In this document: positions 41,010 to 49,425 of the stretch, one piece after another
Position numbering within the stretch: position 1 is the first letter of the stretch
How the letters are laid out: each line of letters starts with the position of its first letter
DNA from: Pseudanabaena sp. FACHB-1998
Lineage (GTDB): Bacteria > Cyanobacteriota > Cyanobacteriia > Pseudanabaenales > Pseudanabaenaceae
Direction: 5' to 3'
Length of the DNA stretch: 64,000 nucleotides
NCBI RefSeq assembly: GCF_014696355.1
Contig: NZ_JACJQA010000024.1
Location: 62,001-126,000, forward strand
Made by a program: the position numbers and the translations under genes
Notes under the pieces: generated by a model
The model's input: only the letters and a program-made list of their open reading frames with translations
What the model was told of the DNA's origin: nothing
Database searches by the model: none

Positions 41010-41339
41010 ATGAAATATACTGGTGACTGGCGCATTGATGAGATGGATTTGTGGGAAGCAGATTATCTCAATATGGAGGTAGAGGCTTTTATTTCCATAG
41101 ATGAGCGTGGTGATGGGCGGTTCCAATTTGGATTGGTCTCAGGATATATTGATGGAGAAGTTATCCAGAGAAAAACAGAGACTCGTCTTGAGTTTACTTG
41201 GGAAGGTAATGACGAATGTGACGAAGCCGCAGGAAGTGGTTGGTTACAATTGAGAGATGACGATACTCTTGAGGGCGAAATTAAATTTCATGGAGGCGAT
41301 CGCTCAAGTTTAATTGCTACGCGCATTAAAAAACAGTAA
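41010..41339 (+). CDS. Conserved hypothetical protein (beta-rich)
   Basis: A 109-residue acidic protein, beta-rich, starting MKYTGDWRIDEMDLWEADYL, with FTWEGNDECDEAAGSGWLQL and EGEIKFHGGDRSSLIATR. I recognise this as a widespread conserved hypothetical family without assigned function. It lies 19 bases before the RelE-like gene, so the three genes 41010-42284 may form one transcript. It does not look like an antitoxin. Confidence 0.75.
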   Translation: MKYTGDWRIDEMDLWEADYLNMEVEAFISIDERGDGRFQFGLVSGYIDGEVIQRKTETRLEFTWEGNDECDEAAGSGWLQLRDDDTLEGEIKFHGGDRSSLIATRIKKQ

Positions 41340-41358
41340 ATTGGAGAGCTATTTGGTT

Positions 41359-41664
41359 ATGAAAGTAATTTTACAACAACGGGCAGCAATTGCTAAAAGA
41401 TCACTTACTCCTTCGGAAAGAAATCAGGTTGTTAAAGCGATCAATTCACTGAATGAATTGAATTTTGAAAATGCATTAAATTCACCCAAGTTTTATAAAT
41501 TAACGGGTTTATCTAAAACTCATCAAACTCAATTGTATGCATATAGAGTGAACAGCAGATTAAGGTTAATGATTTCTATTGATGAAGACAAATGGATTAT
41601 TGAAGATATTGTTGATTATCATGGTCACTCAAGTAGACTCTTCTTAATACAAGAGAAGGCATGA
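41359..41664 (+). CDS. RelE/ParE-fold small protein
   Basis: A 101-residue basic protein. ATG 41359 has GGAGAG ten bases upstream, while earlier starts overlap the preceding gene. The layout fits RelE-like toxins: two N-terminal helices (LTPSERNQVVKAINSLNEL), then strands FYKLTGLSKTH, QLYAYRVNSRLRLMISI and KWIIEDIVDYHGH. Catalytic residues cannot be assigned. No antitoxin gene is adjacent. Its stop overlaps the start of the DUF4263 gene (ATGA), so the two proteins are probably made together. Confidence 0.72.
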   Translation: MKVILQQRAAIAKRSLTPSERNQVVKAINSLNELNFENALNSPKFYKLTGLSKTHQTQLYAYRVNSRLRLMISIDEDKWIIEDIVDYHGHSSRLFLIQEKA

Positions 41665-42284
41665 AAATTCTAAAATCACATAACTTTGATGCGATAAATT
41701 GCCGATTAGAGTGGAATGATTTTGATGCCTTGCTTAGAACAAAAGAAACACTTAGTGAGCGTAAAGATGTGTTGCCATTTTTTAAGAAAAGGCAAGATTT
41801 ATCTATACTAATTTGTTCATACATTCCAAACATCAAAAAGCCAGATGTATTTGCCCATGAATTTCAAATAAATGGTGATTTTGTTGCAGACCTAATCATT
41901 GGAGATTCAAGAACACATAATTATTTGCTTGTTGAATTTGAAGATGGCAGACCAGATAGTATTTTTATGCACAAGAGAAATAAAGCTACTCCTGAGTGGT
42001 CACCAAGATTCGAGGCAGCGTTTTCGCAATTAGTTGATTGGCTATGGAAATTAGAAGATATGAGAAGTACCTCAGATTTCCATAATACGTTTGGCAGTAG
42101 AAGGGCAAAATTTCAAGGTTTGATTGTGATTGGGAAAGATATGCGGTTTAGCTCACAAGAAATAGATCGTCTAAATTGGCGAAATGATAGAATCATTGTT
42201 GATTCAACTGCTATTTCTTGCGTGTCTTTTAACAAACTTCGAGAAGATTGTGATTATTGGTTAAACAATTACTATGGAGTTTAG
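41661..42284 (+). CDS. Shedu-like (DUF4263) nuclease-fold protein
   Basis: A 207-residue protein with the DUF4263 pattern: a PD-(D/E)XK-like core DFVADLIIGD (D77) then YLLVEFEDG (E92-F-E94, Glu in place of the usual Lys), a helix with FSQLVDWLWKLED (Q122), and strand FQGLIVIGKD. DUF4263 is the nuclease domain of the Shedu anti-phage system. This protein lacks the long N-terminal region of full-size Shedu. It overlaps the RelE-like gene by four bases. A defence role is inferred. Confidence 0.7.
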   Translation: MKILKSHNFDAINCRLEWNDFDALLRTKETLSERKDVLPFFKKRQDLSILICSYIPNIKKPDVFAHEFQINGDFVADLIIGDSRTHNYLLVEFEDGRPDSIFMHKRNKATPEWSPRFEAAFSQLVDWLWKLEDMRSTSDFHNTFGSRRAKFQGLIVIGKDMRFSSQEIDRLNWRNDRIIVDSTAISCVSFNKLREDCDYWLNNYYGV

Positions 42285-42363: not shown

Positions 42364-43794
42364 CTAACTGTCTTTGGTTTGTCCAAAGGCGAGACGTAAA
42401 AATGGGGGGGCGAGGAAAGTGGTGAGGATGACCATAATAATGATCGAAACCTCTAAGGGTTTGCTCAGAACACCGCTAGCGGAACCGATTCCCGCGAAGA
42501 CTAATCCGACTTCACCACGGGGGATCATGCCTACGCCGATCGCTACTCGATTGATATTAGGTATCCCAAATACCGCCCAACCCGTGACCAATTTGCCAGC
42601 GATCGCTACTAACACTAAGAAAATCGCAATCAGCAAACCAGCGCGATTATCAGGATTAGCAGGATTTAAAACGGTTAAATCGGCTCTAGCCCCAACCGTC
42701 ACAAAAAACACTGGCACAATTAGATCAGCGATCGGCTTAATTAGCTCATCCAATTCATTCCTTGCGTCACTTTCGTCTAAAACTAGCCCTGCGGCAAAAG
42801 CACCCAAAATCGCCTCAAGGTGAATCGCATTCCCGATAAATGCCATAAAGAAGGCAAAAATAAAGGCAGGGATCACAATGTTGCCGCGAGTTTCTAGCTT
42901 AGAGACGATCGCTGTAAAACTTTTATTAAAAAAGCCACCCAGCAAGATTGCGCCCACCAAAAAAGCTGTTGCACTGACGATTAGGTAAACCACGTTAAGC
43001 ACATCAATTTCACCAGTTTTCGCTAAACTTGCGACCACTGCCAAAACGATAATTCCTAAGACATCATCTATAACCGCAGCCCCAACGATGATTTGACCTT
43101 CTGTAGACTTCAATCTGCCTAGCTCCGATAGCACCTTAGAGGTAATACCGATGCTAGTTGCAGTCAAAGCAGCTCCCGCAAAAATAGCAGGAATAGCCGC
43201 CACATGGAAAATCATCATCAATCCCACCGTACCTGCGGCAAAGGGAACTGCTACCCCGACGCAAGCAGCAACCACGGCTTGAATCCCTACTTCCTTTAGG
43301 TCACGGAGGTTGGATTCCAGCCCAATCTCGAATAGCAAGACAATCACCCCTAACTCAGCAATCACTGAAATAACTTCACTTTGCGAAGCAAAAACTTGGC
43401 TAAGGACTTCGGGGGACAGATGATTGAGTAGTTGAATCCCTGACATGATCAACGAGTCGGACACCAATAAGCCACTGTCGGGAAAAATGATCAGATGTAG
43501 AGCCGATATGCCGACAAGGACACCTGCCACAAGTTCGCCGAGGACAGGAGGAAAATCGAGCCGTTTGGCTATTTCGGAGCCAATTTTGCTGGCGAGATAG
43601 ATTACCACCAAGCTTAATAACACACTAGAGAGGACAATCGGCGCATTTTCAGCTTCGGCAGTAGCTAAAAGTGGACTTGGTAAGTCGAAGGCAAAGAGCT
43701 TAGGTAAATAGCCCTCAAAAAAATACGACGCGATCGCATTATTCAAAAACATAAGCTGTGCTTGTGGTGATCGATTTATTTGCAATTCATCCAT
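42364..43794 (-). CDS. CPA2-type Na+/H+ (or K+/H+) antiporter
   Basis: A 476-residue membrane protein with about 12-13 hydrophobic segments. Landmarks are FPPVLGELVAGVLVG, ELGVIVLLFEIGLESNLRDL, AALTATSIGITSKVL, the ion-site region AAVIDDVLGIIVLA with paired aspartates, FVTVGARADL, and MIPRGEVGLVFAGIG. It resembles NapA/NhaS3-type antiporters, which in Synechocystis is a thylakoid Na+/H+ antiporter. There is no C-terminal TrkA domain. Ion choice cannot be read from sequence. Confidence 0.9.
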   Translation of the reverse strand: MDELQINRSPQAQLMFLNNAIASYFFEGYLPKLFAFDLPSPLLATAEAENAPIVLSSVLLSLVVIYLASKIGSEIAKRLDFPPVLGELVAGVLVGISALHLIIFPDSGLLVSDSLIMSGIQLLNHLSPEVLSQVFASQSEVISVIAELGVIVLLFEIGLESNLRDLKEVGIQAVVAACVGVAVPFAAGTVGLMMIFHVAAIPAIFAGAALTATSIGITSKVLSELGRLKSTEGQIIVGAAVIDDVLGIIVLAVVASLAKTGEIDVLNVVYLIVSATAFLVGAILLGGFFNKSFTAIVSKLETRGNIVIPAFIFAFFMAFIGNAIHLEAILGAFAAGLVLDESDARNELDELIKPIADLIVPVFFVTVGARADLTVLNPANPDNRAGLLIAIFLVLVAIAGKLVTGWAVFGIPNINRVAIGVGMIPRGEVGLVFAGIGSASGVLSKPLEVSIIIMVILTTFLAPPFLRLAFGQTKDS

Positions 43795-43814
43795 TTTCGC
43801 TTAGGATGCGTATG

Positions 43815-43930
43815 TATAGCAAAGCAAGAGTTAGCCAGTCCAAGCTAAAACCCAAAAAGCGAGTGGCGGCGCTTCGCGCCGCCACTCGCTTTTTGGGTTT
43901 TATGTCCTAAGCAAAACTTACATTGCTATA
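43815..43930. mobile_element. 116-bp miniature inverted-repeat element, TA-type (diverged copy)
   Basis: It begins TATAGCAAAGCAAG and ends CTTACATTGCTATA, with TATAGCAA as an inverted end. The central hairpin AAAACCCAAAAAGCGAGTGG plus CGGCGC is perfect. The total length equals that of copies at 9200 and 55991, although the outer ends have diverged. It lies between the divergent antiporter and sigma factor genes. Confidence 0.78.
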
Positions 43931-43996: not shown

Positions 43997-44563
43997 ATGA
44001 AACTTGCTGACCAGACTGACGCAGATATTTTGCAAGCTTGGCGATCGGGTAGCAGTCTAGCTTTTGGCATCTTCTACGATCGCTATGGCGAGTTGATTTA
44101 TCGCTTAGCCCTCAGAATTTTGGGTAATTTGCAAGAAGCGGAAGACTTAACCCAAGAGATTTTTATTCTGCTAAGTCGCAATACTAACTATGACAGTAGC
44201 CGTGGTTCGATCTCTACCTACTTAACGGTTCTAACGCGATCACGTGCCATTGACCGAATTCGCAAAACGCGATCGCAACAGCAACATTTAGAAAAATGGG
44301 AACAGAATCTGGCGATCGACTATGACCCTAGAAATTCTTCGCTCATGGAAACAATGTCACTTGCCGAACGTTCAGAAAAGGTAAAGGCAGCTTTAGCAAA
44401 TTTGCCAGACAAACATCGCCAAGTTTTAGAAATGGCATATTTTGATGGACTCAGCCAAACCGAAATCGCCAAAGCACTCGATAAGCCCTTAGGAACGGTG
44501 AAGTCTTGGGCGCGAAATGGATTGATTCGACTGAGAGAAAGTTTAAAAGATGCGTTAGATTGA
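43997..44563 (+). CDS. ECF-type RNA polymerase sigma factor
   Basis: A 188-residue group 4 sigma factor. Region 2 spans about 25-95 with FYDRYGELIYRLALRIL and EAEDLTQEIFI. Region 4 spans about 130-185 with LPDKHRQVLEMAYFDGLSQTEIA and LGTVKSWARNGL. The next gene, 13 bases on, encodes an anti-sigma factor, so the pair is likely a signal-responsive regulator of the redox genes that follow. The stimulus is unknown. Confidence 0.92.
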   Translation: MKLADQTDADILQAWRSGSSLAFGIFYDRYGELIYRLALRILGNLQEAEDLTQEIFILLSRNTNYDSSRGSISTYLTVLTRSRAIDRIRKTRSQQQHLEKWEQNLAIDYDPRNSSLMETMSLAERSEKVKAALANLPDKHRQVLEMAYFDGLSQTEIAKALDKPLGTVKSWARNGLIRLRESLKDALD

Positions 44564-44576
44564 GGCGAGAGTACCC

Positions 44577-45392
44577 ATGACACAAGCAAATTATCCTGAA
44601 AGTTTTCCTCAAAAATATCCTCCTAATTGGGAAGAGTTATTAGCTGGTTATGTTTTAGGTGATTTAGAGTCGGATGAGGTGACCGAAATGCAGGAACTCA
44701 TCACCACTTATCCAGAGCTAATTACGGAAATTGATCGCTTGCAGGAAACCCTCGCACTTTTACCACTTGGACTGAGTGAAAGTTTACCCGCTAATAATTT
44801 GCGCGATCGCATCGCGGCGATCGCTGTGCCTCAAGATAATCCTGAACTTGTCTTCAAATCCTTAAAAAACAGTAATTTAGAAACAGATAAGCGATCACCA
44901 AAAACTCAAAATCTCTGGAAATTAGGAGCAATTGGTTTAGGCGCTATTAGTGCGATCGCCCTAGCGATTTTGGGCTATGACAATTATCAAATGCGTCAGC
45001 AAATTGCCAGTACTCAAATAGAAATGCAAAAATATCGCCAAGCGATCGCTATGTTACAAGCGGCTGATAATCGGATGATTTCGCTTAAGGGAATGGGCGC
45101 AATTCCTGCGGCTTCGGGAAGTGTGATGATTGCTCCCAATGAAAAGACTGCCATGATCAACATTCAAAATCTCATACCGATTCCTGAAGAAAATAGCTAC
45201 CGTCTTTGGGCGATCGTGGATGGCAAAAAGGTTGACTGCGCCCAATTTCGTCCTGATGCTCAGGGCAAGGTCTTTTTAAAAGTGCCATTAGGGAGCGCTC
45301 TCAAGCAATCCACGACTTTAATAATTACAATCGAACCTAATAAAGATATGCCCGAACCCACAGGCGAAATGGTCATGAAAGGAGAAGTCTAA
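44577..45392 (+). CDS. Membrane anti-sigma factor (RskA-type)
   Basis: A 271-residue protein. The N-terminal cytoplasmic domain has NWEELLAGYVLGDLESDEV, the usual anti-sigma fold, but no HxxxCxxC zinc site. A membrane helix is at about 120-139 (IGLGAISAIALAILGY). A coiled coil (about 140-170) precedes the extracytoplasmic RskA C-domain with NSYRLWAIVDGKKVDCAQF and TLIITIEPNKDMPEPTG. It should hold the sigma factor until a periplasmic signal triggers proteolysis; that is family knowledge. Confidence 0.88.
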   Translation: MTQANYPESFPQKYPPNWEELLAGYVLGDLESDEVTEMQELITTYPELITEIDRLQETLALLPLGLSESLPANNLRDRIAAIAVPQDNPELVFKSLKNSNLETDKRSPKTQNLWKLGAIGLGAISAIALAILGYDNYQMRQQIASTQIEMQKYRQAIAMLQAADNRMISLKGMGAIPAASGSVMIAPNEKTAMINIQNLIPIPEENSYRLWAIVDGKKVDCAQFRPDAQGKVFLKVPLGSALKQSTTLIITIEPNKDMPEPTGEMVMKGEV

Positions 45393-45423
45393 ACAAAAGT
45401 GTCGTGTGCCGCACCACTAATTC

Positions 45424-45482
45424 TTGGATGACAAAATAAAAGTGGCGGCGCTTCGCGCCGCCACTTTTATTTTGTCATCCAA
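45424..45482. terminator. Perfect 28-bp hairpin after the anti-sigma gene
   Basis: TTGGATGACAAAATAAAAGT plus GGCGGCGC pairs perfectly around TTC. It may separate the sigma/anti-sigma transcript from the redox genes. The arm TTGGATG also occurs in the hairpin at 63026-63074. Confidence 0.75.
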
Positions 45483-45559
45483 TTTGAAAGTTCATGCGTA
45501 TATCCAATAAGTGAGTATCCAAAAAACAACTCCATTTATTGCAAAGAGAGCTTATAACG

Positions 45560-45919
45560 ATGAACTACAAATTTCTTGGACTAATTGCTGGTTTAGTTTT
45601 GACCTCTGGGCTTGTCTCCTGTGCAGATTCCACTACGCCTACCCAGCAATCCACTCCCGCCACTCAATCCACTCCCGCCACCAAGCCCGCCGAAGCGATG
45701 AAAAATGACGCAATGAAAGGCGATGCGATGAAGGATAAAACTGGCGACGCGATGAAAAATGATGCCATGAAAGGTGATGCCATGAAAAAGGATAAGCCTG
45801 CGGATGCGATGAAGGGAGATGCGATGAAGAATGATGCGATGAAAAGTGATAAACCTGCGGATGCAATGAAGAATGATGCGATGAAAAGTGATAAACCTGC
45901 GGATGCTCCTAAACCATAG
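45560..45919 (+). CDS. Pentapeptide MXKDX-type repeat lipoprotein
   Basis: A 119-residue lipoprotein. The signal peptide MNYKFLGLIAGLVLTSGLVSC ends in a lipobox LVSC. A short Thr/Pro linker is followed by repeats of AMKNDAMKGD and SDKPAD units, about 13 AMK units in all. NCBI models a similar family as pentapeptide MXKDX repeat protein, and its function is unknown. ATG 45560 is chosen because it starts the signal peptide. The gene lies between the sigma/anti-sigma pair and the DM13 gene. Long antisense frames over it are artefacts of the repeats. Confidence 0.85.
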   Translation: MNYKFLGLIAGLVLTSGLVSCADSTTPTQQSTPATQSTPATKPAEAMKNDAMKGDAMKDKTGDAMKNDAMKGDAMKKDKPADAMKGDAMKNDAMKSDKPADAMKNDAMKSDKPADAPKP

Positions 45920-46026
45920 TTATACAAATTCACAAAAGTGTGACAACACTTTTGTGAATTAAAAAACAAACCGAGTAAGGCTTTCCAAAACTAAAAATGA
46001 CGTAGCCATTTTTAGTTTTGGTATAA
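45920..46026. mobile_element. Two-hairpin miniature element, TTATACCAAA-type (intact copy)
   Basis: It begins directly after a stop codon with TTATACAAATTCAC and ends TTTTGGTATAA. Hairpin 1 is ATTCACAAAAGTG/CACTTTTGTGAAT; hairpin 2 is CAAAACTAAAAATG/CATTTTTAGTTTTG. It matches 56139-56247 and the interrupted copy at 9151-9370. Confidence 0.8.
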
Positions 46027-46126
46027 CTCATCCCCTTTGAGAAAAAGTCGGAGATCTTAAGCTTTACTTGGACTAACTTAAAAAGAGCGACTTGATTACG
46101 ATTCTTGGAATTGAACAAATCTATTT

Positions 46127-46651
46127 ATGTTAAATAAAAATCTAATCTTAGCCACTTTAACAGTGATACTTCTAGGATGTGCAAATCGTTCAACCATATC
46201 CCAAGTTGAGTCTATTCCTACATCAATAACTGCGAATGAAAAATCTTTGCAGACTAAATCTCCTGTCTTGGCTGATAGCCCAAAAGCTATCAATAAATTA
46301 AGAACTGGTAGTTTCGTTAATGGCGAACATCCCACCAGTGGCTCGGCTAGACTTATCTACGAAAATGGAACCTATTTTGTTGAACTGGATCAAACCTTTC
46401 AGACATCAGATAAGGGGCCAGATTTGTTTGTAATTTTGCATCGATCGCCAGATGTTTTAAAAACGACTAAGCCGCCAGATTTTGCGATCGCTAAGGGAGA
46501 CTATACCCTAGTTGCACCTCTCAAAAGCTTTAACGGCAAACAACGCTATGCAGTTCCTAAAGGTATTCAGCCAGACCAATATCAGTCTATTGCGATCTGG
46601 TGTCGCCAGTTTAACGCGACCTTTGGTGCTGCGTCTCTCACTTCTTCTTAA
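46127..46651 (+). CDS. DM13-domain lipoprotein
   Basis: A 174-residue lipoprotein: the signal peptide ends ILLGC, a Ser/Thr linker follows, and a DM13 domain occupies about 62-172. Landmarks are GSFVNGEHPTSGSARLI, GPDLFVILH, and the ending YQSIAIWCRQFNATFGAA with a conserved Cys. DM13 is a beta domain thought to act in electron transfer, proposed mainly from its occurrence beside redox proteins in bacteria and animals. It sits at the head of the TlpA/CcdA/molybdoenzyme genes, in agreement. Confidence 0.9.
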   Translation: MLNKNLILATLTVILLGCANRSTISQVESIPTSITANEKSLQTKSPVLADSPKAINKLRTGSFVNGEHPTSGSARLIYENGTYFVELDQTFQTSDKGPDLFVILHRSPDVLKTTKPPDFAIAKGDYTLVAPLKSFNGKQRYAVPKGIQPDQYQSIAIWCRQFNATFGAASLTSS

Positions 46652-46702
46652 TGAACAAAGGATGGCATCGCTCTACTGGACAATCCTTTAGGAGCATATA
46701 TT

Positions 46703-47317
46703 ATGAGTAATAGTCTATTGCGTCGTCGTCGATTGTTGATCTATGCAGGTTTGGGAGCTTTAGGGATTGGTAGTGCGGCGATCGCCACGCAATTGGGCGC
46801 ATCTAAAATTACAGCCAACAAACCCAAACTAGAGACTCGCAAGCCTTTGACAAACCTAGCCCAGCCCCTAGTAACAGAAGCCAATTTGCCAAAGTTGCCA
46901 GAATTTCAAGGTATTGCTCAATGGTTAAATTCTCCTCCCTTGATGACTGGGAACTTAGTTGGTAATGTAGTGCTGATTCAGTTCTGGACTTTTAGCTGTA
47001 TTAATTGTCAAAGGACTTTGCCCTATGTCACTCGCTGGCATGAGCAGTATGGGGCGAAAGGTTTAAAAATTATCGGTGTGCATACGCCTGAATTTGCCTT
47101 TGAACGTGATATCAATAACATTAAGGATGCGATGCAACGCTATAGAATTAACTACACGGTTGCAGTAGATAATGAATTTAAAACTTGGAAAGCCTATGGT
47201 AACGAGTACTGGCCGCATCTATACTTAGCCGATCGCCAAGGTAATCTCCGATATGATCATATTGGTGAAGGTGCATATGACCGTACTGAAAAAACAATTC
47301 AACAACTCTTAGGCTAG
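46703..47317 (+). CDS. TlpA-like extracytoplasmic thioredoxin
   Basis: A 204-residue exported redoxin. The N-terminus RRRRLLIYAGLGALGIGSAA is a basic, twin-arginine-like signal anchor. The thioredoxin fold has the redox pair C99-x-x-C102 in FWTFSCINCQRTLP, and the conserved cis-Pro loop appears as EYWPHLYLADRQG. The protein would act in the periplasm or thylakoid lumen as a thiol reductant fed by CcdA. It starts 51 bases after the DM13 stop and ends five bases before ccdA. Confidence 0.9.
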   Translation: MSNSLLRRRRLLIYAGLGALGIGSAAIATQLGASKITANKPKLETRKPLTNLAQPLVTEANLPKLPEFQGIAQWLNSPPLMTGNLVGNVVLIQFWTFSCINCQRTLPYVTRWHEQYGAKGLKIIGVHTPEFAFERDINNIKDAMQRYRINYTVAVDNEFKTWKAYGNEYWPHLYLADRQGNLRYDHIGEGAYDRTEKTIQQLLG

Positions 47318-47322
47318 AGATA

Positions 47323-48015
47323 ATGGAACTTTCTCCTTTCGCAATTGGTTTAGCAATTCTTGGCGGTATGGTCACCGTATTTTCTCCTTGCATCTTGCCA
47401 ATTTTACCAATTGTGATTGGGCGATCGCTCCAAACCCATCGCTACGGACCCATTGCCCTCGTCGCTGGAACGATGAGTGGCTTTGCGATCGCGGGTAGCC
47501 TCTTAGGCGTAGCAAGTTTATGGTTTACCGACTTAGCAAATTTTATCCGCATTTTGGCGATCGCCATTTTGCTAATTTTAGGACTTCTATCTCTATTCCC
47601 AAAGTTAAATTATTTATTATTAAGTAAGTTGCGACTTCCTAAATTCAAAGAACCAGAACGGATCAATCTAGCTGGTGAGTTCCTTTTAGGTTCGCAATTA
47701 GGCTTGTTATGGACTCCCTGTGCTGGTTCTGTCCTTGGCAGTATCTTAGTTTTAGCTGCTGCTGAGCAAGAAATCTTTAGCGCTTTTATTCTTTTAATTT
47801 TCTATGGATTTGGCGCAGGTATTCCGATGTTATTGATTGCCTATGCCAGCCGCTATTTCAGCAAGTCATTTATCAAGCTGCGTAAACATAGCGCCATACT
47901 TCAACAAATCGGTGGCTTACTGATTTCCTTGACAGCGATCGCGATCATTCTCGGATGGGATGTCAAGGTTCAACTTTGGCTAGCGCCTTTATTTCCACCT
48001 CTGTTTGATCTTTAG
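47323..48015 (+). CDS. ccdA: CcdA/DsbD-type thiol transporter
   Basis: A 230-residue membrane protein with six helices. The two redox cysteines are C23 (VFSPCILPILP) and C133 (LLWTPCAGSVLG), placed as in CcdA. It moves reducing equivalents from cytoplasmic thioredoxin across the membrane to exported thioredoxins. The gene follows the TlpA-like gene by five bases, so the pair likely forms a reducing relay. A role in cytochrome c maturation is an alternative, but no ccs gene is close by. Confidence 0.92.
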   Translation: MELSPFAIGLAILGGMVTVFSPCILPILPIVIGRSLQTHRYGPIALVAGTMSGFAIAGSLLGVASLWFTDLANFIRILAIAILLILGLLSLFPKLNYLLLSKLRLPKFKEPERINLAGEFLLGSQLGLLWTPCAGSVLGSILVLAAAEQEIFSAFILLIFYGFGAGIPMLLIAYASRYFSKSFIKLRKHSAILQQIGGLLISLTAIAIILGWDVKVQLWLAPLFPPLFDL

Positions 48016-48057
48016 CTAATGCTTCTTAAGCTCTAATTCCTTACCTCTAAAAAGCTG

Positions 48058-48642
48058 ATGAGTCCCAAATCTTCTCCTGCACCCAAGCAAGCGATTTTTA
48101 TTAAATCCTTCCATTTTATTAATTTAATCTCTTTGATTTTTATGACCGCTAGTGGTCTGCAAATTTATAACGCTAATCCTGTATTTGGCGGTAGAGCAGG
48201 ATGGCGATTCCCTAAGGTTTTACTCTTGGGCGGATGGCTAGGAGGCGGACGCAATTGGCATTTTGCGGCGATGTGGTTCTTTTCGATGAGCCTATTGATT
48301 TATGGAATTTATATTTTTATTACTAGGCGTTGGAAGCATCGCTTTGCTTCGGAAAAAGATTTGCAAGCCCTCAAAGCTCAAAATCCTAAACGCAAAAATT
48401 ACGCATGGCATCGTCTTGCCTATACGGCGATTATTCCCATACTTTTGCTAGCGATTCTTTCGGGTTTATGTATGTATAAGCCTGCTCAGTTTGCCTTCGT
48501 CTCAGGTTTATTTGGCAGTTGGCAAAATCTCCGCATTGCTCATTTTCTGACTATTCCGATTGTGCTTATTTTTGCGATCGCCCATATATTTCTATCTTTT
48601 AGAGTTGGCGGTCTCAAGATGATTCGCTCCATGTTTGTGTAA
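48058..48642 (+). CDS. Membrane cytochrome b (b561/YedZ-like)
   Basis: A 194-residue protein with four or five membrane segments. Histidines in helices, H19 (IKSFHFINLI), NWHFAAMWFF, AWHRLAYT and AHFLTIPIVLIFAIAHIF, could ligate two hemes. The family is the bacterial cytochrome b/b6 type that serves periplasmic oxidoreductases. It lies 24 bases before the molybdoenzyme gene, so it probably passes electrons between the quinone pool and that enzyme. Confidence 0.85.
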   Translation: MSPKSSPAPKQAIFIKSFHFINLISLIFMTASGLQIYNANPVFGGRAGWRFPKVLLLGGWLGGGRNWHFAAMWFFSMSLLIYGIYIFITRRWKHRFASEKDLQALKAQNPKRKNYAWHRLAYTAIIPILLLAILSGLCMYKPAQFAFVSGLFGSWQNLRIAHFLTIPIVLIFAIAHIFLSFRVGGLKMIRSMFV

Positions 48643-48666
48643 GTAGGATACTTTAAGGTAAAGCAA

Positions 48667-49425
48667 ATGCAGTTTGATAAATACATTCGGAATAATCTTC
48701 AAAAGCAATTACAGCATAATTTACAGCGTCGGTTTTCCCGTCGTCAGATGCTCCAATTTACAGGACTATCAGGACTGGGCTTAGCCTTGGGAAGTTGCGG
48801 GACTTCTCTGTATGTAGATAAAGTTCGTCCGATTTTTGAGCCACTTAATCAAAGCATTGAAGAGTTAATTCTCAAGCCTCAGACTCCTGTGCCTGAATTT
48901 CCCGCCAGTGCGATCGAGCCAGAAGCTTTATTAGTCAACTCCTTTGACTTCACTCCTATTATTAATCCTAATACCTTCAAATTAGTAATTGATGGTGCAG
49001 TGGATAATCCCTTGCAATTGAGCATGAGTGATATGCGATCGCTACCCTTAACCTCCATGGTGATCCGTCATGTTTGCGTAGAGGGTTGGGCAGCGATCGT
49101 GCAGTGGGGAGGTGTACGCTTACTGGATTTAGCAAAGCTAGTCCAGCCCCAAGCAGGAGCGCGTTATGTCTACTTTGAGTCCGCCGATGGCTATTATGAA
49201 AGTTGGGATATCGCCTCTTCTTTACATCCACAGACGCTGCTTGCCTATCAAAAAAATGGAGAGACGATACCTGTGGAGAATGGCGCTCCTTTACGATTAG
49301 CATCTCCGATTAAATTGGGTTATAAGCAATCTAAATGGGTAATTAGAGTCACCTTTGCCAAGGAACTTTCGCAACGTCGAGGCTATTGGGTAGATGAAGG
49401 CTATGAATGGTTTGCAGGATTGTGA
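48667..49425 (+). CDS. Exported sulfite-oxidase-fold molybdopterin oxidoreductase
   Basis: A 252-residue enzyme with a signal containing SRRQMLQFTGLSG, a twin-arginine type, and a possible lipobox LGSC. The Mo-cofactor domain has IDGAVDNPLQLSM and the molybdenum-ligand C137 in RHVCVEGW, followed by YFESADGYYESWD and LRLASPIKLGYKQSKW. It resembles MsrP/YedY-type proteins but lacks a dimerisation domain. With the cytochrome b beside it, a MsrP-like reductase for oxidised methionine is one possibility. The substrate is unknown. Confidence 0.9.
   Translation: MQFDKYIRNNLQKQLQHNLQRRFSRRQMLQFTGLSGLGLALGSCGTSLYVDKVRPIFEPLNQSIEELILKPQTPVPEFPASAIEPEALLVNSFDFTPIINPNTFKLVIDGAVDNPLQLSMSDMRSLPLTSMVIRHVCVEGWAAIVQWGGVRLLDLAKLVQPQAGARYVYFESADGYYESWDIASSLHPQTLLAYQKNGETIPVENGAPLRLASPIKLGYKQSKWVIRVTFAKELSQRRGYWVDEGYEWFAGL

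Follow-up and report, generated by a model that had tools for sequence, protein, structure and literature searches.

A putative extracytoplasmic function sigma factor regulon for the protection of the envelope against methionine oxidation in Pseudanabaena and other cyanobacteria

The closest described counterparts of the genes considered here are the SigF-NrsF-MrpX-YedY1-YedZ1 system of Azospira suillum, which was reportedly described by Melnyk in 2015, and the BcrS-AbcS-BcrXQP system of Brucella. The latter consists of an extracytoplasmic function (ECF) sigma factor, a membrane anti-sigma factor, an MXKDX peptide and MsrP/MsrQ; according to excerpts of the report, bcrXQP is induced by HOCl and contributes to HOCl resistance, and BcrX was proposed to act as an oxidant sink (PMC8315932). 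A comparable set is found in Pseudanabaena sp. FACHB-1998 (genome size 4.78 Mb), in a 64-kb stretch of contig NZ_JACJQA010000024.1, hereafter referred to as the window. Eight co-directional open reading frames (ORFs) on the + strand (positions 43997-49425 of the window) encode, in this order, a sigma factor, an anti-sigma factor, a methionine-rich (Met-rich) lipoprotein, a DM13 lipoprotein, a TlpA-like thioredoxin, CcdA, a b-type cytochrome and a molybdoenzyme. Like the systems of Azospira and Brucella, the locus thus combines an ECF sigma factor and a membrane anti-sigma factor with a Met-rich, MXKDX-like peptide, an MsrP-like molybdoenzyme and a haem-b membrane partner. All eight genes named in the initial annotation of the window are present, and ORF and family calls agree; its remark that no description of the set as one system was known needs a correction, since the same logic is known from Azospira and, as far as the excerpts of PMC8315932 go, from Brucella. 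No paper on a cyanobacterial envelope methionine-repair regulon was found in searches of open-licence papers. At the level of the sequence, the gene set, a shared promoter-like motif, the co-occurrence of the genes and the conservation of redox residues are established, and it is probable that the genes form an ECF regulon, which would protect the envelope against methionine oxidation by oxidant scavenging and methionine sulfoxide repair.

Family assignments are based on Pfam and NCBIfam profile scores in relation to the curated cut-offs. The first gene (43997..44563, +) encodes a SigK-like ECF sigma factor with 254.8 bits against the NCBIfam model PRK12519 (cut-off 222); the curated SigK model is its second match with 120 bits, below the cut-off of 226, and the closest solved relative is SigK (4nqw, 80.5 bits). 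The adjoining gene (44577..45392, +) encodes an RskA-type transmembrane anti-sigma factor, for which PF10099 (RskA_C, 76 bits) was the sole Pfam family matched at an E-value of 0.01. Excerpts of a study on mycobacterial SigK state that Cys133 and Cys183 matter in this protein (PMC7509140); in contrast, the sigma factor of the window has no cysteine, and SigK-type disulfide sensing was rejected on this ground; its relatives have zero to two. A cysteine of the RskA_C domain occurs in 10 of 13 anti-sigma factors and was dropped as a general sensor, because it is missing from the loci L105, L124 and L126. The tail of the anti-sigma factor carries a GxMVM motif, the first methionine of which is present in 13/13 and the second in 12/13 aligned proteins, mostly from Pseudanabaena. 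Based on this conservation, one might guess that methionine oxidation itself is the signal.

When upstream regions of sigma and Met-rich genes from relatives were aligned, a common block, CATCC-N16-CGTA, became apparent, and the longer form TCATCC-N16-CGTAT occurs as an exact match only twice in the window, namely in front of these two genes. For the sigma gene, the predicted ECF promoter (43787..43813, +), which overlaps the start of a divergent antiporter gene, ends 184 bases upstream of the start codon. The predicted promoter of the Met-rich lipoprotein gene (45475..45501, +) ends 59 bases upstream of its start codon, and this block is conserved in nine aligned Pseudanabaena-type sequences. 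A hairpin of 28 bp (45424..45482) is located 3' of the anti-sigma gene, and its right arm contains the -35 element of the Met-rich promoter. Another hairpin of 27 bp (43846..43902) lies in the predicted leader between promoter and start codon of the sigma gene and could attenuate sigma expression. A hairpin in this position is also present in the genomes G258, G264 and G267 (L203, L213, L237), where the arms differ, the tip is TTC or GAA and one stem change is compensatory.

The number of motif copies by itself shows no clear excess in the genome of the strain and was discarded as evidence there; only the position relative to genes is informative. When two mismatches were allowed, 11 matches were obtained in the window, while 14.3 are expected, and the short form CATCC-N16-CGTA is present in 22 copies in the genome versus 18 for the control (26 versus 13 in the genome G193). 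Six of the 22 copies lie outside ORFs, as judged by start codons, and three of these are found close upstream of an ORF of at least 110 amino acids: the sigma gene, the Met-rich gene and egtD, where the motif is located 30 bases upstream of the start. The sites L139, L141 and L158 are not followed by an ORF of 110 amino acids.

In addition, 26 genomes of the genus were scanned for TCATCCA-N15-CGTA with the reversed pattern as a control. The scan yielded 63 motif sites versus 24 sites of the reversed pattern; two of the motif sites are contributed by a duplicated copy of the cluster in G247. Forty sites are located upstream of system genes (14 sigma, 12 Met-rich gene, 8 egtD, 6 exported msrA), 17 lie inside ORFs, and six non-ORF sites (L189, L190, L204, L221, L232, L233), which either precede other genes or have no gene behind them, were counted as misses. 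All 40 system-gene sites fall in genomes possessing the sigma gene, and the eight genomes lacking it contain a single site, which precedes a gene judged by eye to be recN-like. The egtD gene is present in 24 of the 26 genomes. It is preceded by the motif in 16/18 sigma-positive genomes, 13 of which have the N16 spacing with at least 9 of 10 bases and three of which (G244, G251, G267) have an exact N17 motif; by contrast, none of the six sigma-negative genomes with egtD has the motif there (best score 7/10, N16 or N17). An exported MsrA, export being judged by eye from the N-termini of the Msr proteins, is encoded in nine of the 26 genomes, all of them sigma-positive, and an exact motif precedes its gene in each case, with N16 in eight and N17 in the ninth. 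Two further observations were made in these genomes. Two small exported proteins (L244:9519-9893 and L243:8595-9005) look similar by eye and have no Pfam match; one is encoded behind a motif in G251, the other about 4 kb from the exported msrA in G193. In G247 (G247:C9:41093-71446; L045, L046), the whole cluster from sigma factor to molybdoenzyme occurs twice, about 23.5 kb apart and with equal match scores.

In four loci, the genes are distributed over divergent units: L105 (Argonema), L126 (genome G129), L124 (genome G197) and L096, a short contig of an uncultured relative without the sigma gene. All 15 copies of ATCC-N16-CGTA in these loci precede system units, while 2.0 copies are expected from the base count; this count is partly selected, since L105, L124 and L126 were used for motif discovery and L096 was chosen for its Met-rich motif. 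The four Met-rich sites and one sigma site therefore do not count as independent, whereas the other ten had not been inspected beforehand. In L105, the motif is found before the sigma gene, the Met-rich gene, the TlpA-CcdA unit, the cytochrome-molybdoenzyme unit and msrA; the msrA copy lies inside the frame defined by the first ATG and about 60 bases upstream of a later ATG. The motif precedes 4/4 units in L126, 3/3 in L096 and 3/4 in L124, where the sigma gene has a weaker form by eye. The scan of the whole genome of G129 (18 sites versus 4 in the control) added another exported MsrA behind the motif, and that of G197 (11 versus 9) a second exported DAM-repeat protein (L250, G197:C6:19382); the remaining sites of both genomes lie within ORFs or are followed by other genes or by none. 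Thus, in some loci the predicted motif links the sigma factor to every module of the system. The co-occurrence of the genes and their link to the sigma factor, on which the initial annotation had staked its proposal, are therefore both apparent from sequence data.

The same loci bear on a smaller regulon, which would comprise only the sigma/anti-sigma pair and the Met-rich and DM13 genes, with the genes from TlpA to the molybdoenzyme forming a separate downstream housekeeping operon. In the window, the Met-rich gene and the DM13 gene are 207 bases apart, with a hairpin but no further exact motif between them; moreover, G248 retains the first part alone. The genome of the strain also contains a second, motif-free set of Met-rich, cytochrome and molybdoenzyme genes (G000:C17:156065-156739, L115), as does G193 (G193:C17, L117), in both cases without sigma factor and TlpA. 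Nevertheless, such a division is improbable, given that the TlpA-CcdA and the cytochrome-molybdoenzyme units have their own motif copies in L096, L105, L124 and L126. Furthermore, the molybdoenzyme of the cluster type (at least 75% identity) is found in 16 of the 26 genus genomes, all among the 18 sigma-positive ones, and in none of the eight sigma-negative genomes; the sigma-positive G248 and G262 lack it as well. A second type of molybdoenzyme, 59 to 65% identical and represented by the motif-free loci L115 and L117, is present in 25/26 genomes.

The arrangement of the genes extends beyond the genus. With an E-value threshold of 1e-20, the molybdoenzyme was found in 38/244 sampled cyanobacterial genomes and in 26/108 genera. 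For the analysis of neighbourhoods, the best 80 of 487 relatives from a scan of GTDB genomes were kept and supplemented with 20 further stretches, which after removal of two duplicates gave 98 loci. These are interrelated; as many contigs are short, the locus counts are lower bounds. Near the molybdoenzyme gene, the cytochrome is encoded in 78 loci, TlpA and/or CcdA in 40, DM13 in 13, the anti-sigma factor in 10 and EgtD in two. The initial annotation had proposed to check the conservation of the gene order. Met-rich protein, TlpA, CcdA, (DM13), cytochrome and molybdoenzyme follow each other on one strand in 26/98 loci across cyanobacterial families, including records of Nostoc, Microcoleus, Phormidium and Leptolyngbyaceae. 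The arrangement is therefore more than chance. On the molybdoenzyme tree, the presence of TlpA/CcdA changes 15 times versus 31.4 times in shuffles.

Genes for methionine sulfoxide reductases are also found in this neighbourhood. MsrA or MsrB is encoded at most 9 kb from the molybdoenzyme in 7/98 loci and adjoins it in four (L087, L097, L098, L126). MsrA is the neighbour in Chamaesiphon, where DM13 and an EgtD-like frame without its start lie nearby, and in Chroococcus, where it is located on the opposite strand; MsrB is the neighbour in L098 and L126. In L107 (Leptolyngbyaceae SM1_3_5), a row of genes encodes MsrB, MsrA, the Met-rich lipoprotein, TlpA, CcdA, the cytochrome and the molybdoenzyme; EgtD is encoded on the opposite strand, and an EgtB-like (FGE-domain) gene lies further out. 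As no motif copy precedes the MsrB-to-molybdoenzyme and EgtD genes of L107, this clustering counts as evidence separate from the motif. The initial annotation had considered the repair of oxidised methionine or thiols in exported proteins; because EgtD as well as exported MsrA and MsrB belong to the regulon or the cluster, the gene content argues for oxidised methionine more than for a general thiol path.

The thiol path, however, has to be weighed. In such a system for thiol (disulfide) maintenance, TlpA and CcdA would form the core, the molybdoenzyme would oxidise sulfite or some other small sulfur compound, with only an incidental place for the Met-rich protein. Indeed, the Met-rich gene tracks TlpA/CcdA: it is present in 33/40 loci with TlpA/CcdA versus 4/58 loci with the molybdoenzyme alone, and independent pairs on the tree amount to 8.2 with and 0.2 against this association (median p 0.008, range 0.002 to 0.29). 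In addition, TlpA resembles mycobacterial DipZ and the molybdoenzyme has a sulfite-oxidase fold. The membership of MsrA and MsrB in the regulon or cluster is at odds with this proposal, and in profile and fold comparisons the molybdoenzyme is closer to MsrP than to the sulfite oxidases, sharing with MsrP the stretch CVExW, which contains the Mo-ligand cysteine, and the stretch NGAPxRL in the alignment. A role confined to thiols is hence considered unlikely, and methionine repair is preferred.

The Met-rich lipoprotein (45560..45919, +; 119 amino acids) resembles the MXKDX type, with a TIGR02953 score of 39.4 bits slightly below the cut-off of 41, and matches no Pfam family; a search of the genome of the strain with TIGR02953 gave two weak matches. 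A lipobox is visible by eye in the translations of both the Met-rich and the DM13 protein. Met-rich proteins are encoded in 37/98 loci, and their repeats vary from locus to locus (GDAMKND, SPDAMKSPDAM, EQGDAMQQD, SSPDAMSSPDAM). Methionine accounts for 10% of the residues on average (3 to 15%), and its median spacing is 7; lysine ranges from 0 to 22%, glutamate is most variable and aspartate varies about as little as methionine; histidine averages 0.1% and cysteine, including that of the lipobox, 1.3%. Judging from this pattern, selection seems to maintain a flexible exported chain of evenly spaced methionines, which would fit an oxidant sink. The gene is followed by a hairpin, and therefore the lipoprotein may be produced in excess over the enzymes. 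Also unlikely is copper or metal handling, in which the Met-rich lipoprotein would bind Cu(I) and TlpA/CcdA and DM13 would load or protect a metal centre. Met-rich exported and TlpA-type proteins do serve copper centres in other bacteria, a heavy-metal P-type ATPase with an HMA domain (L119:14567-16831) is encoded about 4 kb from the molybdoenzyme as the sole metal hint, and in L088 the set is accompanied by an exported Met-rich protein of another kind. However, P-type ATPase-like ORFs were found in only 3/98 loci by a motif script, the neighbour families not having been annotated singly. The Met-rich proteins contain little histidine and cysteine, the methionine spacing is unlike MxxM clusters, and metal handling would not explain why MsrA, MsrB and EgtD belong to the regulon. 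Yet another exported Met-rich protein, with MMKDG/MMKKDD repeats, is encoded beside a cytochrome-molybdoenzyme pair in Acaryochloris (L106:8968) and is not included in the count of 37.

The DM13 lipoprotein (46127..46651, +; PF10517, 102 bits) has W158 and C159 in 15/15 aligned sequences; the tree offers too few pairs to relate DM13 to TlpA/CcdA. In G248, a short Met-rich lipoprotein is naturally fused to DM13 and encoded behind the motif (L240:4434-4982). No credible relatives of DM13, the anti-sigma factor or the cytochrome b were found in the PDB.

The four remaining genes encode proteins with conserved redox residues. The TlpA-like exported thioredoxin (46703..47317, +) carries a CINC motif, whose cysteines C99 and C102 are kept in 33/33 aligned sequences, and is a relative of the C-terminal domain of DipZ. 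Its closest solved relatives are mycobacterial DipZ (2hyx, 141.9 bits) and chloroplast SOQ1 (78.7 bits), a protein linked to methionine sulfoxide reduction; it weakly matches the MsrAB model PRK14018 near its N-terminal end (E 1e-4). CcdA (47323..48015, +; DsbD_TM, 43 bits) has two conserved cysteines (35/36 and 36/36), and in L130 one open frame was matched by both the TlpA and the CcdA searches. The b-type cytochrome (48058..48642, +) belongs to PF01292 (53.9 bits) and has five conserved histidines, H19 in 73/74 and H68, H118, H162 and H176 in 74/74 aligned sequences. The molybdoenzyme (48667..49425, +; PF00174, Oxidored_molyb, 114.8 bits) possesses a twin-arginine signal and a lipobox, and R25, R26 and C44 are nearly invariant in 25 sequences. 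By profile, its best solved match is E. coli MsrP (1xdq, 85.9 bits), and MsrP chains occupy ranks 1-8 in a Foldseek search with a structure model of mediocre quality (mean pLDDT 65), of which the core alone was relied on. The initial annotation is to be refined in two points: the cytochrome is not MsrQ, whose family PF01794 was not among its Pfam matches, and the molybdoenzyme reaches 90.9 bits on the MsrP equivalog model, below the cut-off of 207. Excerpts of a study on Limnospira mention an MsrP-like gene for which no MsrQ was found (PMC8400943). The PF01292 cytochrome, encoded near most of the molybdoenzymes, suggests why, assuming that the Limnospira protein belongs to the same subfamily. 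Some molybdoenzyme matches (L012, L026; G091:C3:1709038-1709751) contain one in-frame stop and may represent pseudogenes or misplaced starts.

Taken together, the regulon might work as follows. An envelope oxidant would free the SigK-like sigma factor from its RskA-type membrane anti-sigma factor, and the sigma factor, presumably by binding the motif, would activate its own gene, the operon of the Met-rich lipoprotein and the distant egtD, and in relatives also the gene for the exported MsrA. The Met-rich lipoprotein would serve as a sacrificial but renewable sink, whose spaced methionines would be the first to be oxidised and would afterwards be reduced again. Electrons could flow along two arms: from quinone, the putative donor, via the PF01292 cytochrome b to the MsrP-like molybdoenzyme, for which methionine sulfoxide is the presumed substrate, and from cytoplasmic thiols via CcdA and TlpA to envelope thiols and, where present, to exported MsrA/MsrB. 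Either arm might repair the lipoprotein, and DM13 would be an additional exported redox part cooperating with it. A more far-reaching version can be envisaged, in which a single ECF switch couples envelope methionine repair to ergothioneine synthesis, the GxMVM tail of the anti-sigma factor senses methionine oxidation directly and the Met-rich lipoprotein is regenerated or read by DM13 as a new exported redox partner, a partnership suggested by the natural fusion in G248. In this full form, the model is speculative and rather unlikely.

Several findings weigh against a methionine-protecting regulon. The sigma factor is linked in only 9 of the 98 loci, which are moreover interrelated and often located on short contigs. 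Of the Met-rich genes that do not belong to the main Pseudanabaena cluster type, 19 out of 24 have no motif within the 300 bases scanned. Among sigma-positive genomes, G245 and G256 lack a motif before egtD (N16 and N17 scored), as does the second egtD copy of G267. No exported MsrA was found in the genome of the strain itself. In G248, the Met-rich/DM13 fusion is the only member of the set left beside the sigma and anti-sigma genes, without a redox chain at the locus. The low score of the molybdoenzyme on the MsrP model has to be added, and this enzyme may serve a different function, because the presence of the Met-rich gene follows that of TlpA/CcdA. Finally, the msrP-like gene of Limnospira is repressed rather than induced under gamma radiation, according to excerpts of the report (PMC8400943).

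Hairpins are not restricted to the cluster. The window contains 18 long near-perfect hairpins (e.g., 43846-43902, 45424-45482 and 45985-46021) with stems of 16-31 bp and three-base loops. Their arms differ while their tips recur, with GGC-NNN-GCC in 7/18 and GGCGC-NNN-GCGCC in 5/18, and several of them lie directly 3' of genes. Terminators or small palindromic elements are possible explanations. Upstream of the cluster, positions 41661-42284 encode SduA, the Shedu anti-phage protein (Pfam SduA_C 104 bits, PADLOC SduA 294 bits), the start of which is overlapped by a small ORF (41314-41664) with no Pfam family above cut-off.

Photosynthetic cells generate oxidants continuously, and the set offers a putative envelope methionine-repair regulon for cyanobacteria together with a candidate promoter. 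It also supplies a concrete putative partner for DM13, which is annotated as an electron-transfer domain. Other systems share individual parts of it. In E. coli, MsrP is exported by the twin-arginine pathway and paired with a haem-b membrane partner, MsrQ. The molybdoenzyme of the window shares the fold and the Mo-binding cysteine motif with E. coli MsrP but has a lipobox, a score far below the MsrP cut-off and a haem partner from another Pfam family. In Neisseria PilB and the pneumococcal Etrx-CcdA-MsrAB2 system, CcdA/TlpA-type proteins feed exported MsrA/MsrB; to our knowledge, neither includes a Met-rich sink, a molybdoenzyme or ECF control. The mycobacterial SigK-RskA regulon, which includes dipZ and in which the -35 element of SigK is CCATCC, resembles the locus in its SigK-like sigma factor, RskA-type anti-sigma factor and DipZ-like TlpA. 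Unlike this regulon, the set contains molybdoenzyme and Msr genes, and no Mpt70/Mpt83-type (fasciclin) gene is among the eight, none having been sought elsewhere; unlike DipZ, TlpA and CcdA are encoded by two genes in the window. The systems of Azospira and Brucella remain closest. Like the SigF/NrsF-MrpX-MsrPQ type, the locus has an ECF sigma/anti-sigma pair and a gene for a Met-rich exported peptide under a common predicted promoter, which reads TCATCC-N16-CGTA in the window. In contrast to the SigF/NrsF type of Azospira, the anti-sigma factor is not of the NrsF/DUF1109 type, and in contrast to both systems, the cytochrome belongs to PF01292 instead of PF01794, the molybdoenzyme, which scores below the MsrP cut-off, has a lipobox, the Met-rich protein is a lipoprotein, and TlpA, CcdA and DM13 are added, as are exported MsrA/MsrB and EgtD in relatives. 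Thus, the logic of the regulon is known from Azospira and Brucella, while its parts are partly different; different phyla seem to have assembled the sacrificial Met-rich strategy from different regulators and cytochromes.

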